In this document: positions 19,022 to 54,019 of the stretch, piece after piece
How positions within the stretch are numbered: the first letter of the stretch is position 1
How the letters are laid out: each line of letters begins with the position of its first letter
Origin: Parapedobacter lycopersici
Lineage (GTDB): Bacteria > Bacteroidota > Bacteroidia > Sphingobacteriales > Sphingobacteriaceae
Assembly (NCBI RefSeq): GCF_024643285.1
Contig: NZ_JAMSLW010000002.1
Span: forward strand, 186,001 to 250,000
Direction: 5' to 3'
Length of the DNA stretch: 64,000 nt
Notes under the pieces: generated by a model
The model's database searches: none
What the model was told of the DNA's origin: nothing
Seen by the model: the letters and a program-made list of their open reading frames with translations, nothing else
Position numbers and translations under genes: made by a program

Positions 19022-19375
19022 ATGAGTACAGCAACATTGACATCGCCGGCACCCTTGACCATAACGGAGGGCGCCATTAACGAACTCAAAAAGCTGAAAG
19101 AGCAACAGGAAATTTCAGATGACTTTGGTCTGCGCGTCGGCGTGGAAGGCGGTGGATGTGCAGGGATGAACTACATCCTCGGGTTTGATCAAAAGAAAGA
19201 CGGTGACTCCGAATACGACATTTCGGGAGTCCGGATATTCATGAACAAGGCACATGGGTTATACCTGGCCGGAATGGAAATCGACTTCAAAAACGGCCTT
19301 GATGCCCGCGGATTTATATTCAACAATCCCAATGCCAGCAGCACCTGCGGATGCGGGTCATCATTTTCAGCGTAA
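19022..19375 (+). CDS. A-type iron-sulfur cluster carrier (IscA/SufA/ErpA family)
   Basis: A 117-residue protein with the three conserved cysteines of A-type carriers: Cys46 in GGGCAGMNY, and Cys109 and Cys111 in the C-terminal CGCGSSF. These hold a Fe-S cluster that is passed to apo-enzymes. Length is typical. It stands alone, away from any suf or isc operon in this window, with its own promoter and an unusual 11-bp repeat element directly downstream. Which of IscA, SufA or ErpA it replaces cannot be told from sequence. Confidence 0.95.
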   Translation: MSTATLTSPAPLTITEGAINELKKLKEQQEISDDFGLRVGVEGGGCAGMNYILGFDQKKDGDSEYDISGVRIFMNKAHGLYLAGMEIDFKNGLDARGFIFNNPNASSTCGCGSSFSA

Positions 19376-19470
19376 CCGGCTGCGGGCACACCTATTGCAA
19401 CCCCCGGCAAGCGGACAGTAAAGGGTGCCGTTCCATCCTGGCATAGCGGCAAACCCGGACTCCGTTTCAC

Positions 19471-19718
19471 CTTTCTTCGGCATTTATTCGATACTTATTC
19501 GGATTTACTTCGTTCCTGCTCCGGGATTTCCTCGACATGGCTTCGGAAGTCCTTCGCAGGTGTTCGGAATGCAATGCATTGCACGCCGAATAGCCCCGAA
19601 GCGCACTCGAAGAAGTCTCGAAGCCGTGTCGAACAGCACTCGAACAAGCCTCGAAGCAGGGTCGAACAGCACCCGAACAAGTCCCGAAGCGCACTCGAAC
19701 ACCTGTCGAATAACATCG
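19471..19718. repeat. Inverted array of 11-bp units around a palindromic core
   Basis: CG steps occur every 11 bp on both sides of the palindrome GCAATGCATTGC (19571-19582). Left of it the units read nnnTTCGnnnn, with CG at 19478, 19489, 19500, 19511, 19522, 19533, 19544, 19555 and 19565. Right of it they are inverted, YCGAA, with CG at 19587, 19597, 19608, 19619, 19630, 19641, 19652, 19663, 19674, 19685, 19696 and 19707. The first nine pairs are exact mirror images about 19576.5, including the single 10-bp step on each side. The sequence between the CG positions varies, so spacing and orientation are conserved more than sequence. On the right, units such as TCTCGAAGCCG, TGTCGAACAGC and ACTCGAACAAG also form 33-bp higher-order repeats. 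Confidence 0.85.
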
Positions 19719-19796
19719 GGGGAAAATAATGAGGGAAAGGTCGTTACCCGGCCTGCCACATCCACCGGACAGCTTCCAGTTTTCATGCAAATTCGT

Positions 19797-19804
19797 TATC
19801 TTTG
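19797..19804 (+). promoter_or_regulatory. Bacteroidota -7 box TATCTTTG for ileS
   Basis: TATCTTTG matches TAnnTTTG. It implies a leader of about 85 nt before the ileS ATG at 19896, longer than for most genes here, and leaves room for leader regulation. No T-box-like structure was recognised. Confidence 0.5.
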
Positions 19805-19895: not shown

Positions 19896-22800
19896 ATGTA
19901 CAAGGAATATAAGCAACTGAATCTGCCCGAAATCGGCAGGGAAATACTGGAACGCTGGCAAACGGAGGATATTTTCGGGAAAAGTATCCGCAACCGGCCG
20001 GCCGACAAGCCTTATACGTTTTACGAAGGTCCCCCCTCTGCCAATGGCATGCCGGGGATACATCACGTGATGGCCCGTGCAATCAAAGATATTTTCTGTC
20101 GCTACAAAACACTCAAGGGCTACCAGGTAAAGCGTAAAGGCGGCTGGGATACCCACGGGCTGCCCATTGAGCTTGCCGTGGAAAAAACACTGGGCATTAC
20201 CAAGGAAGATATCGGTAAAAAAATATCCGTGGCCGATTACAATGCGGCATGCCGTAAGGAGGTGATGAAATATACGGACGTGTGGAACGACCTCACGGAA
20301 AAAATGGGGTATTGGGTAGATCTCGAACATCCTTACATCACCTACAAAACCGAATACATCGAAACCCTGTGGTGGATACTCAAGGAACTACATAAAAAAG
20401 GACTGCTATATAAGGGCTATACCATCCAGCCCTATTCACCGGCGGCGGGTACCGGTTTGAGTTCGCACGAACTCAACCAGCCGGGAACCTACAAGCAGCT
20501 TAAGGACACGACCATCGTGGCGGAATTCCGCATTAAAAAGGATCAGGTTCACCCAGCCATGGGCACCCTGTTTGAAGACGAAAATGAGGATACCGCGTTT
20601 CTGGCCTGGACGACCACGCCCTGGACATTGCCGGCGAACAGTGCGCTGGTGGTGGGCAATACCATCCGCTACGTAAAGATCCGCACGTTCAATCCCTATA
20701 CGTTTGAACCGGTCAGCGTGGTACTGGCCAAGGACCTGGTGGGTAAATTCTTCAAACCGGAAGGCCAGCATGCTGCCTTCCAGGATTACCAGCATGGCGA
20801 TAAGTTAATCCCCTGGGAAATCCGTGCGGAATTTTCGGGCAGTGAGCTGCTGAACCTCCGTTATCACCAGCTGATGCCCTATGTTACCAATGCCGACCTG
20901 GAAGCCAATGCCTTCCGGGTGATTGCAGGCGATTTTGTGACGACAGAAGACGGAACGGGTATTGTGCATTCATCGGCCACATTCGGGGCGGATGACTTCC
21001 GTGTAAGCAGGGAAAACGGGATACCGGGTGTATTTGTAAAAGATGAAAATGGCAAAGACGTGCCCATCGTCGATAAGCGCGGCAGGTTTGTCAGGGAGAT
21101 CGGCGAATTCGGCGGCAGGTTTGTCAAGGAAGAATATTACGACGATGCGACGCGGGCCGGTGCCGATTTCAAATCCACCGACGTGTTGATCGCTATCAAA
21201 CTCAAGGAGGAAAACAAAGCCTTTGAGGTTAAGAAATACGAGCACAGCTATCCGCACTGCTGGCGCACAGACAAGCCGGTACTTTATTATCCGCTGGACA
21301 GCTGGTTTATCCGCACCACCGCCGTTAAGGATGAGCTGGTAGCCTTAAACAAAACCATCAACTGGAAGCCCGAAGCCACCGGCACGGGCCGTTTCGGCAA
21401 CTGGCTGGAGAACCTGGTCGACTGGAACCTCTCCCGCTCACGGTACTGGGGCACACCGCTCCCGATCTGGCGGAGCGAGGACGAAAACGAGGAAATCTGT
21501 ATCGGCTCGATCGACGAGCTGAAAGCACATATCGAGCGCAGCCTCGCTTCCACGGTGCTGGCCGAAACCGAAAAAGAAAAACTGCGGGATTACCTCAGCA
21601 GGTTCGGCACAGACCAGCTGGATCTGCATCGCCCGTACGTAGACGACCTGGTACTTGTATCAGACGGCGGCCAGAAACTGTTCCGTGAACCGGACCTGAT
21701 CGACGTATGGTTCGACAGTGGCGCCATGCCGTTTGCGCAATGGGGGCTCGACAAGGAAAAGCTGGCTGCCGGCAGCGATACACCGTTTAACGCTGGGTTT
21801 GAAGACGCGTATCCGGCAGATTTCATTGCCGAGGGCGTAGACCAGACCCGGGGATGGTTTTTCACCCTGCACGCCATATCCACCATGCTCCGCGGATCCG
21901 TGGCCTTCCGGAATGTGGTATCCAACGGGCTGGTACTGGACAAGAATGGCAACAAAATGTCCAAACGGCTGGGAAATGCGGTGGACCCCTTTACTACCAT
22001 TGAAAAACACAGCGCCGACGCTACCAGGTGGTACATGATCTCCAATGCGTCGCCCTGGGATAACCTGAAATTTAACGAAGAAGGCCTGGATGAAGTCCGC
22101 CGTAAGTTTTTCGGCACCCTGTACAACACCTATGCCTTTTTTGCCCTGTACGCCAACATCGATAAATTCACCTATAAAGAAGCAGACGTGCCGGCGGCGG
22201 CACGCCCCGAAATCGACCGGTGGATTCTCTCGTTGCTGAATAGCCTGACCCGGGAGGTTGACGGATACTATGCGGATTTTGAACCGACACGGGCGGCACG
22301 TGCCATCCAGGCATTTGTTGATGAACACCTGAGTAACTGGTATGTACGGCTGTGCCGCAGGCGCTTCTGGAAAGGCGAATACAGTGAAGATAAGATTTCT
22401 GCTTACCAGACGCTGTATACCTGCCTGGATACCGTTGCCAAGCTGATGTCACCGATCGCACCGTTCTTCAGCGACCGCCTGTACCTGGACCTGGACGCGG
22501 TTACCGGAAAAAACACGGCAGCATCCGTTCACCTGACCGATTTCCCGGCGTATCATGCCGAGCTGGTCGACAAGGGACTGGAAGCGCAGATGAGCCTTGC
22601 ACAGGACATCTCTTCACTGGTGCTTTCGCTACGCAAGAAAACGGGCATCAATGTAAGGCAGCCACTCAACAAGATCCTCCTGCCGGTGCTGGACGATCAG
22701 TTCCGGGAGCATGTAACACACGTTAAGGAACTGATTTTATCGGAAACCAACATCAAGGCCATCGAATTCATTACCGATACATCCGGTATCATCAAAAAGA

Positions 22801-23309
22801 AAATAAAACCGAATTTCAAGACGCTTGGACCCAAAGTGGGCAAAGACATGAAAACGGTAGCCAGCGCCATTCAATCACTCAGCGCTGCGGAAATCGCCGT
22901 ACTTGAACAGGAAGGAGCCATCGCGCTGCCCAACACCCCTTACACCGTACAGGCTTCCGACGTGGAAATCATCGCAGAGGACGTAGCCGGCTGGCAGGTG
23001 GCCAACTTAGGCAAACTCACGGTAGCGCTGGATATCAACATGACTCCCGAATTAAAAAGCGAGGGAATCTCCCGTGAACTCGTCAACCGGATACAGAACC
23101 TGCGCAAGGAACGCGGGCTGGAAGTAACCGACCGGATAGCGGTGCGGGCAAGCAATATCCCCGAAATCACCGAGGCAGCAACGGCGAATTTATCTTATAT
23201 TCGTACCGAGATCTTGGCAGACTCTTTGCTATTCGAGGATGACCTCCCTTCAGGAGATACCGTAGCAATCGGGGAGCAGGAATTAAATGTATTAATTGAA
23301 AAAGTGTAA
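19896..23309 (+). CDS. ileS: Isoleucyl-tRNA synthetase, IleRS2 type with GIHH in place of HIGH
   Basis: A 1137-residue class I synthetase that charges tRNA-Ile. The catalytic HUP core is split by a CP1 editing domain (about 200-400, with WTTTPWTLPAN). KMSKR is at 687-691, and an anticodon-binding domain and a long C-terminal extension follow. The first signature motif reads SANGMPGIHHVMAR: Gly54-Ile55-His56-His57 instead of HxGH. The length, the lack of a C-terminal zinc-finger cysteine cluster and this GxHH order match the eukaryote-like IleRS2 class. In published work the swapped motif goes with very strong mupirocin resistance. It is the only ileS in the window. Three bases separate it from the DksA-like gene, so the two are probably co-transcribed. 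Confidence 0.97.
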   Translation: MYKEYKQLNLPEIGREILERWQTEDIFGKSIRNRPADKPYTFYEGPPSANGMPGIHHVMARAIKDIFCRYKTLKGYQVKRKGGWDTHGLPIELAVEKTLGITKEDIGKKISVADYNAACRKEVMKYTDVWNDLTEKMGYWVDLEHPYITYKTEYIETLWWILKELHKKGLLYKGYTIQPYSPAAGTGLSSHELNQPGTYKQLKDTTIVAEFRIKKDQVHPAMGTLFEDENEDTAFLAWTTTPWTLPANSALVVGNTIRYVKIRTFNPYTFEPVSVVLAKDLVGKFFKPEGQHAAFQDYQHGDKLIPWEIRAEFSGSELLNLRYHQLMPYVTNADLEANAFRVIAGDFVTTEDGTGIVHSSATFGADDFRVSRENGIPGVFVKDENGKDVPIVDKRGRFVREIGEFGGRFVKEEYYDDATRAGADFKSTDVLIAIKLKEENKAFEVKKYEHSYPHCWRTDKPVLYYPLDSWFIRTTAVKDELVALNKTINWKPEATGTGRFGNWLENLVDWNLSRSRYWGTPLPIWRSEDENEEICIGSIDELKAHIERSLASTVLAETEKEKLRDYLSRFGTDQLDLHRPYVDDLVLVSDGGQKLFREPDLIDVWFDSGAMPFAQWGLDKEKLAAGSDTPFNAGFEDAYPADFIAEGVDQTRGWFFTLHAISTMLRGSVAFRNVVSNGLVLDKNGNKMSKRLGNAVDPFTTIEKHSADATRWYMISNASPWDNLKFNEEGLDEVRRKFFGTLYNTYAFFALYANIDKFTYKEADVPAAARPEIDRWILSLLNSLTREVDGYYADFEPTRAARAIQAFVDEHLSNWYVRLCRRRFWKGEYSEDKISAYQTLYTCLDTVAKLMSPIAPFFSDRLYLDLDAVTGKNTAASVHLTDFPAYHAELVDKGLEAQMSLAQDISSLVLSLRKKTGINVRQPLNKILLPVLDDQFREHVTHVKELILSETNIKAIEFITDTSGIIKKKIKPNFKTLGPKVGKDMKTVASAIQSLSAAEIAVLEQEGAIALPNTPYTVQASDVEIIAEDVAGWQVANLGKLTVALDINMTPELKSEGISRELVNRIQNLRKERGLEVTDRIAVRASNIPEITEAATANLSYIRTEILADSLLFEDDLPSGDTVAIGEQELNVLIEKV

Positions 23310-27341: not shown

Positions 27342-27692
27342 TTAGTTTTGCTTCTGCACCACTTCCATCTTTTCAGCGAAATGCTCGCAGTAGTCGCGCA
27401 GGTCACCGATTACGGCTTTCGCCATGGCGTCGTCGCCTGAAGCACGGATGAAGCTGTCGCCCATGGTCTGCAATGTCTCATAAAAGAACCGCTTCATTTC
27501 ATCCAGTGGCATATCCTTGGTCCACAGGTCAATGCGGAGCGAATTTTTATACTGGTGATCCCAAAGCGACAGGAACAGGGCCTTCGCCGGCAGGGCTTCT
27601 TTATTTTCCCCATCGGTAGATTCCCAGGTAATCTGGTCGGGTACGTTATTTTCGTCCAGCTCAATTGTCAGTTTTATCTCTGCCTTTTTCAT
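27342..27692 (-). CDS. gldC: Gliding motility protein GldC
   Basis: A 116-residue cytoplasmic protein recognised by its N-terminus KKAEIKLTIELDENNVPDQI, then LFLSLWDHQYKNSLRIDLWTKDMP and DEMKRFFYETL, matching GldC of gliding Bacteroidota. GldC is needed for full gliding in Flavobacterium, though it is not a core motor part. It also occurs in non-gliding relatives, so it does not prove motility. Its start codon lies inside the first copy of a 50-bp tandem repeat, and the preceding mini-ORF overlaps it by ATGA, which may change its translation. Confidence 0.92.
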   Translation of the reverse strand: MKKAEIKLTIELDENNVPDQITWESTDGENKEALPAKALFLSLWDHQYKNSLRIDLWTKDMPLDEMKRFFYETLQTMGDSFIRASGDDAMAKAVIGDLRDYCEHFAEKMEVVQKQN

Positions 27693-27742
27693 CTATATAA
27701 CTTGTTCTTTAACGGCGATGAAGCTTGCTTTGCAGGTTTCAT
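27689..27742 (-). CDS. Mini-ORF 1 made by the 50-bp repeat, coupled to gldC
   Basis: ATG at 27742 encodes MKPAKQASSPLKNKLYR, then TGA whose last bases overlap the gldC start (ATGA). It exists because the repeat unit carries the gldC leader and start codon while 50 is not a multiple of 3. Expression is plausible because its upstream context is identical to that of gldC. The peptide resembles nothing I know, so it may matter only as a leader ORF. Confidence 0.4.
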   Translation of the reverse strand: MKPAKQASSPLKNKLYR

Positions 27743-27815
27743 CTATATAACTTGTTCTTTAACGGCGATGAAGCTTGCTTTGCAGGTTTCATCTATATAA
27801 CTTGTTCTTTAACAA
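27690..27815. repeat. 50-bp tandem repeat (two and a half copies) over the gldC start
   Basis: The 50-bp unit starting TTTCATCTATATAAC is repeated twice without mismatch (27688-27737, 27738-27787), followed by a partial copy to 27815. Each copy contains CAT, a minus-strand start codon, with the same upstream sequence (TTAAAGAACAAGTTATATAG). The exact identity of the copies points to recent duplication. It fills the space between the small membrane protein gene and gldC. Confidence 0.95.
27739..27792 (-). CDS. Mini-ORF 2 made by the 50-bp repeat
   Basis: The second copy of the repeat gives the same 17-residue frame from ATG at 27792, with TGA overlapping the start of mini-ORF 1 by ATGA. The result is a chain of three coupled starts: mini-ORF 2, mini-ORF 1, gldC. 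Confidence 0.4.
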   Translation of the reverse strand: MKPAKQASSPLKNKLYR

Positions 27816-53889: not shown

Positions 53890-54019
53890 ACACCTGCTTC
53901 GCTGAGAAATCGGATTAAGTCAGTCCGGCATCCATAGTGAGTCCGGCTTTTTCCGGAAAAAACTGGACTCACCCTGGACTCACTATGGACTCACCCTGGA
54001 CTCACTCCGAAGCAGGTGT
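53890..54019. repeat. 130-bp palindromic element with 11-bp direct repeats
   Basis: The ends ACACCTGCTTCG (53890-53901) and CGAAGCAGGTGT (54008-54019) are perfect mirror images about 53954.5. The centre TTTTTCCGGAAAAA lies on the same axis. The right arm carries four 11-bp units (CTGGACTCACC, CTGGACTCACT, ATGGACTCACC, CTGGACTCACT) with GG at 53965, 53976, 53987 and 53998. The left arm carries the inverted CCATAGTGAGTCC (53932-53944). About two thirds of the positions pair. The plan is the same as at 19471-19718: a palindromic core with 11-bp units mirrored outward. Confidence 0.8.

Follow-up and report, generated by a model that had tools for sequence, protein, structure and literature searches.

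Known phased direct repeats and an 11-bp array in Parapedobacter lycopersici

BldC, a MerR-like wHTH protein of Streptomyces, forms head-to-tail oligomers on direct repeats, and one helical turn separates the protected tracts at smeA-sffA (PMC5859096). In the sections of the sources drawn on here, its operators at the smeA-sffA and whiI promoters consist of direct repeats about one turn apart, variable in number, with the repeat AATTXXXX(C) and two to four protomers (PMC5859096, PMC11963761). The structures 6AMA and 6AMK are of BldC and 4J2N is of an excisionase (PMC11963761). Operators of Apl and other RDFs contain direct repeats at a spacing of about one turn, 10-11 bp in the case of Apl, and are bound cooperatively with bending of the DNA (PMC7498355). 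The sites of Xis, Apl, Cox and RdfS are accordingly described, in the portions cited, as 10-11 bp direct repeats carrying cooperative oligomers; Apl, which also acts at promoters, has its sites, five to seven in number, at att or switch regions (PMC7498355, PMC11963761). TAACTGA heptamer repeats of Beggiatoaceae, Cyanobacteria and some Bacteroidetes are dispersed between genes, some of them upstream of essential genes, and are presented in the cited part of the source as direct repeats, with variable spacers or mirror arms not described there (PMC4679880).

The array reported here lies in the window, the 64,000-nucleotide stretch of Parapedobacter lycopersici DNA that was analysed. It shares with the BldC and RDF operators the direct repeats spaced by about one turn, and with the heptamers a dispersed intergenic placement. 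Unlike BldC operators, arrays of this kind reach 14 units per arm, have two opposed arms, occur in motif dialects and are present in many dispersed copies. The ParR/parC systems also have sites in tandem, at a spacing of about 11 bp, on which a protein forms a ring or filament, but with one centromere per replicon next to parM, whereas the arrays are many and dispersed. A literature search, with subscription journals mostly outside its reach, returned no description of such arrays.

Organization of the array in the window

The array occupies the gap between two genes, which from their sequences we take to encode an IscA/ErpA-like Fe-S carrier and ileS; the latter is 84-86% identical across eight same-genus genomes. 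The features of the region are as follows.

19022 to 19375, plus strand: upstream gene, presumably an IscA/ErpA-like Fe-S carrier (judged from sequence)
19476 to 19566, plus strand: left (weaker) arm, nine units TTCG, TCCG or CTCG at a step of 11 bp, the last step (19553 to 19563) being 10 bp
19571 to 19582, no strand: central palindrome GCAATGCATTGC; the genome copies (n = 19) have GCAANNNNTTGC, its middle varying
19587 to 19710, minus strand: right (stronger) arm, twelve CGAA units (TTCG on the minus strand), the first step 10 bp and the rest 11 bp
19797 to 19804, plus strand: TATCTTTG, which fits TAnnTTTG, between the array and ileS
19896 to 23309, plus strand: downstream gene, presumably ileS (judged from sequence)

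The earlier note had claimed 21 CG dinucleotides on an 11-bp grid around the core, and these were counted as nine on the left and twelve on the right. Measured from the array centre, the left CGs stand at offsets 11, 21, 32, 43, 54, 65, 76, 87 and 98, and the right side has the same nine plus 109, 120 and 131. Ten offsets are mirrored (the nine consecutive ones and 120), which confirms the nine exact mirror pairs first reported, with a single 10-bp step (offset 11 to 21) on each side of the core. At offset 120 the mirrored left CG lies past an off-grid CG at 113, and other off-grid CGs are also present in the array region. Two of the nine left units are imperfect (TCCG and CTCG), and the right arm holds a 33-bp higher-order repeat, so that some of its units stem from the duplication of blocks.

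At step 11, exact TTCG/CGAA units follow one another up to 11 times, against a maximum of 3 in 2000 dinucleotide-preserving shuffles of 19441-19760. The ten mirror CG pairs compare with a mean of 4.5 in one set of 300 shuffles and a maximum of 7 in another set. When the window was scanned at fixed steps of 7 to 23 bp for any 4-bp mark repeated five times with free spacers, such an array was found only at step 11 and its double, 22. Two other repeats were noted in the window: a short mirror array of another motif at 53966-54012, with four GGACTCAC units at an 11-bp step and one inverted copy GTGAGTCC just upstream, and, at 27687-27813, 2.5 copies of a 50-bp unit that match one another at 100%.

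A dispersed family of arrays in the genome

BLAST returned 26 matches for the array in its own genome (3.62 Mb, 22 contigs), which rules out a unique local oddity. The pattern TTCG(N7TTCG)x3, with up to two mismatches, occurs there 149 and 140 times on the two strands, versus 14 and 29 times for the reversed pattern. Twenty-three array loci were examined in this genome (the window, L009-L028, L222 and L223); all have both a TTCG arm and a CGAA arm, one arm being stronger in most. Counting relatives, 53 loci were examined for arrays and two were without one, L196 and L224, the latter a further match to the core pattern at C17:410219.

The GCAANNNNTTGC centre is found in 19 of the 23 copies and is lacking in L027, L028, L222 and L223. 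At L222 (C12:89192) and L223 (C16:529968) the arms meet as TTCGGGTTTTTCCCGAA and TTCGGGGCTCGCCGAA, respectively, so the centre is not required. The alignment of the 19 copies is gap-free across stronger arm and centre, gaps first occurring at column 104 of 169, and the 10-bp step beside the centre is common to the aligned copies. The TTCG columns are invariant or nearly so while the spacers vary; the description of the window array as one in which spacing and polarity are kept and the bases between them vary thus extends to the whole dispersed family. These comparisons establish the spacing, the polarity and the common descent of the copies.

The units are therefore not the near-identical whole units of a simple tandem repeat, since the spacers vary around the constant TTCG. 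The family consists of direct repeats about one helical turn apart, of one polarity per arm and variable in number, and it is represented by homologous copies dispersed between genes, as mobile repeats are. A coding relic was ruled out: the 11-bp and 10-bp steps cross all three frames, and the arrays occupy gaps between called genes. The window array is a real, non-trivial, dispersed DNA element, with similar elements both elsewhere in its genome and in close relatives.

Position relative to genes and promoters

Gene context was tabulated for 21 loci of this genome, with 13 in tandem, three in convergent and two in divergent gaps and three unresolved. The stronger arm is upstream in nine of the 13 tandem gaps by hand count, a weak bias. 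Five of the 23 arrays lie upstream of ileS, rplC, rpsA, rimP and dnaK (the names dnaK and rpsA being presumed from sequence), and the one upstream of rplC has a 12-unit arm. TAnnTTTG is the -7 promoter motif of Bacteroidota. It is present between the array and the gene in 11 of 21 gaps that face a 5' end and in none of 22 that face a 3' end, the latter gaps being shorter. The ileS, rplC, rpsA and rimP gaps contain it and the dnaK gap does not.

Distribution among relatives and change of motif

Using TTCG(N7TTCG)x4 with one mismatch, arrays were found in 30 of 151 family genomes and nine of 25 genera, some with a single match, and the reversed-pattern control gave 0-3 matches per family genome. 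P. lycopersici has the highest TTCG match count among these family genomes. An exact TTCG scan of GTDB genomes gave at least 114 stretches; those listed, when sorted by record title, are 71 from Bacteroidota and 43 from elsewhere. Varied spacers (mean identity up to 0.6) together with a mirror CGAA pair were seen in 25 stretches among the matches listed, all from Bacteroidota and including Sphingobacterium, Daejeonella, Parapedobacter, Olivibacter, Breznakibacter, Marinilabilia, Mediterranea and Carboxylicivirga. The 43 listed from outside Bacteroidota comprise 33 with alike spacers and no mirror, eight with varied spacers and no mirror, and two with alike spacers and a mirror. A Mediterranea massiliensis MAG (L041) has about 18 TTCG units, between which two spacers mostly alternate, and the five-unit TTCG pattern was also seen in at least 120 stretches of viral contigs.

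The same site was compared in eight same-genus genomes. The TTCG array is absent from the orthologous erpA-ileS gap in all eight, and in five of them (G078, G028, G057, G068 and G093) the gap holds an 11-bp mirror array of TTACC/GGTAA instead, so that the mirror geometry is kept under another motif; the scan found no array in this gap in G003, G045 and G087. Over 400 kb of G078, no five-unit array was found besides that upstream of ileS. TTACC arrays occur in six of nine genus genomes and not in that of P. lycopersici. At three sites, ileS, dnaK (L016/L209) and rpsA (L026/L193), TTCG here corresponds to TTACC in a relative. Upstream of rplC, where nine of nine starts were located, no TTACC array was found in relatives; one of them, G068, has a degenerate TTCG mirror array there by eye (L298), and mainly TTACC arrays elsewhere. 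For rimP, two of nine starts were located (P. lycopersici and G078). REP-like stretches (GACGAAACCTAGGAAT...GATTCCAGTTGAGGAGCAA) adjoin the TTACC arrays in the erpA-ileS gap of L144 and L149, twice in the latter.

Other motifs follow the same period. The GTDB stretches (829 kb) were scanned after arrays with three or more nearby TTCG or CGAA had been dropped, and 26 four-unit runs were found at step 11, some of them low-complexity or due to chance (e.g. L124, L095), versus at most seven at any other step from 7 to 25. Sphingobacterium stretches contain AACTA, GTACA, TGTGTC, AGTTC and other motifs, each at 11 bp. In Sphingobacterium paucimobilis HER1398 (L134, 4113-4997), several 11-bp arrays with the marks ATGT, AGTT, CTGC and CCGA are clustered on one contig.

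Linked wHTH and DUF6266 genes

Of the 28 array loci obtained from relatives, eight adjoin a small wHTH gene, and most of these eight have a DUF6266 gene at their opposite end. Presumed sensor-kinase/LytTR or RteC-like genes often come before these loci and a DUF5675 gene after them. Pfam assigned the wHTH type termed HTH-A to HTH_17, and the neighbours to DUF6266 (PF19781) and DUF5675 (PF18925); it gave no match for the type termed HTH-B. All five strong HTH-B loci have a TTCG array between the HTH and DUF6266 genes. Among eight strong HTH-A hits, six are immediately followed by a TTACC array, after which comes DUF6266 at once in three (L435, L442 and L437) and another gene or an inserted stretch in the others; at L447 a phased but degenerate stretch with another motif was seen by eye, and L439 (G087) has no array downstream. 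In a Sphingobacterium MAG (L127), a TTCG array of ten units comes about 20 bp after an HTH gene, and in Marinilabilia rubra (L129) a TTCG array lies about 0.7 kb upstream of DUF6266.

DUF6266 was found in nine of nine genus genomes, 68 of 151 family genomes and none of 14 control genomes. It is present in 28 of the 30 family genomes with TTCG arrays versus 40 of the 121 others (Fisher p = 9 × 10−10, kinship being ignored). In the 450 bp before them, 25 of 32 DUF6266 genes of the genus have an exact 4-mer repeated three or more times at step 11, a few of these runs having only three units and possibly being due to chance (L235, L248), versus nine of 296 control genes, one of which is ileS. The 32 are the best 30 of a longer list plus L226 and L232, with the duplicates L225, L227 and L228 dropped; 24 of the runs are among the first 30 of the 32, the last two being L258 (no run) and L263 (run). 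In other genera, represented by one best-scoring locus per genome (27 DUF6266 loci, the control genes coming from G078 only), step 11 was seen in 12, step 10 in 13 and other steps in at most five. The upstream motif mostly follows the DUF6266 subfamily, as TTCG, TTACC, ATAGGG, ATCGT, CCCG or CGGA. An HTH gene lies within 1.4 kb upstream of 23 of 57 DUF6266 genes, and of none of the ATAGGG, ATCGT and CCCG types. At L239, L249 and L262, a second, promoter-proximal mirror set of TGGCA/TGCCA at about 10-11 bp was seen by eye upstream of DUF6266, as was an ACCGGT palindrome after the promoter. A DUF6266 search of solved structures found nothing, none of 27 pattern stretches on viral contigs was confirmed as a relative by the DUF6266 profile, and the name DUF6266 was not found in the literature covered.

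Across the nine genus genomes the presence of HTH-A and of TTACC arrays agrees in six and disagrees in three, G045 and G057 having arrays with only weak HTH-A homologues and G087 having the gene without arrays. HTH-B is strong in four of the five genomes with the most TTCG matches, and not in P. lycopersici. By gene calls, no wHTH or DUF6266 gene lies beside any of the 23 arrays of this genome, and no array lies beside its HTH homologue (C16:379245) or its single DUF6266 gene (C16:381585). This HTH is 35% identical to type B overall; over its 56-residue domain it is closest to the TTCG-linked HTHs of L127 and L295 (52% and 48% identity), with TTACC-linked L296 (45%) about as close as type B (43-45%). 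L231 has a similar helix and no array, and visual inspection downstream of the HTH genes of L229 and L233 showed degenerate repeats of roughly two turns (about 21 bp) in place of 11-bp arrays.

Proposed mode of action and competing explanations

The anatomy of the array, its dispersal, the motif dialects, the linkage in relatives and the position are direct observations. On balance, we favour the reading that the arrays are operators on which wHTH proteins form filaments, in a variant form of an established mode of binding, and that they have been dispersed as solo copies. The HTH profile has BldC as its best solved relatives (6ama, E 1.1e-4; 6amk, E 1.8e-4), followed by the phage protein 4j2n (E 0.01), which stood beside designed coiled coils, and very weakly by RacA. 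An AlphaFold model of the L127 HTH made without an alignment (mean pLDDT 57) was too weak for use. From the BldC/RDF binding mode one expects units spaced by one turn and of fixed polarity, with few fixed bases, in arrays that vary in length. TTCG would then be a 4-bp recognition mark presented once per helical turn in two opposed rows, along each of which a small wHTH of the HTH_17/MerR-like (BldC/excisionase) type would assemble cooperatively head to tail. With two opposed arms, two such filaments would meet at the array centre, and they may bend or wrap the DNA upstream of the promoter. The source form, as it appears in relatives, would be a wHTH gene, an array, a promoter and a DUF6266 gene, most DUF6266 subfamilies having their own motif. 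From these arrangements we infer that wHTH proteins may bind the arrays, form filaments and alter transcription of the neighbouring genes. The earlier suggestion of a protein lined up on one face of the DNA in two opposed rows has gained wHTH neighbours and motif dialects, the binding itself being the conjectural part.

The main rival, which we consider rather unlikely, is that the array is a MITE/REP-like mobile or gene-converted selfish repeat, its spacing reflecting the binding of a mobilising enzyme or being incidental, and the promoters being tolerated insertion sites. The 19 copies with a common unit order, gap-free through the centre, indicate spread by copying, and a selfish element would also copy. 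Copy number differs sharply between species of one genus, and 23 array loci here face a single DUF6266 gene. However, decaying copies would not be expected to keep TTCG strictly while the spacers are free, arrays of unrelated motif stand at three orthologous sites in relatives, and no blastn match for the array was found to a phage or plasmid element.

It is improbable that the array is bound by another factor (DUF6266 itself, a LytTR response regulator or a nucleoid protein) and that the HTH gene is a mere neighbour. DUF6266 genes have upstream arrays even where no HTH gene is near, and presumed histidine kinase/LytTR-like genes belong to the cluster. Against this, sequence comparison gave no solved relative of DUF6266 that hints at DNA binding, and LytTR sites are usually spaced by about two turns.

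Still a little less probable is an RNA element, whose transcript would form a long hairpin in which features recur at each A-form turn, such as a bidirectional terminator or an RNase III substrate. The arms are mirrored, the window array folds better than its shuffles (z -4.26 and -4.39), and 16 of 18 resolved loci of the genome are in tandem or convergent gaps; good fold energies would, however, follow from the TTCG/CGAA mirroring alone. In the 19 aligned copies, mirror spacers taken from one copy paired no better than those combined from different copies (879 vs 871 ± 8.6), and 209 of 1000 arm permutations scored at least as high as the observed 879, so the long RNA stem proposed at the outset is not supported. 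Compensatory pairing between the arms was not found in these copies, and Rfam gave nothing above threshold, its one match lying outside the array and far below the gathering score. At HTH-A loci such as L435 and L442, moreover, the array follows a terminator hairpin (by eye) and precedes the DUF6266 promoter. The earlier reading as a whole is partly supported, its protein-array half being the better founded of the two.

Neutral tandem-repeat expansion without function is hardly credible: the 33-bp block duplication in the right arm, the near-perfect 11-mers of some Bacteroidota loci (e.g. L137) and the 31 of 71 listed Bacteroidota stretches with alike spacers and no mirror arm would suit it, but the TTCG columns are invariant among divergent spacers in 19 copies, the polarity switch and the 10-bp steps are fixed, and the arrays are linked to DUF6266 and HTH genes.

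Significance

The operator reading for a filament-forming wHTH may extend further, in a form that we put forward only tentatively, to a phylum-wide class of opposed, helically phased wHTH arrays in Bacteroidota, in which each species has a dialect of its own (TTCG, TTACC, ATAGGG, ATCGT and others) set by a DUF6266-linked protein and the motif turns over between species at the growth genes ileS, dnaK and rpsA. Protein and site would then co-evolve while the spacing and the mirror geometry persist, and the motifs would turn over much as centromeres or recombination hotspots do. A search by period and polarity can reveal strictly phased arrays even when the sequence motif changes. The finding joins an intergenic repeat to the DUF6266 family and to a binding mode that the papers cited report for shorter operators. 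If the proposed reading is true, long chromosomal wHTH filaments would form upstream of translation and growth genes on species-specific motifs, and the arrays would allow what DUF6266 loci do to be assayed directly.
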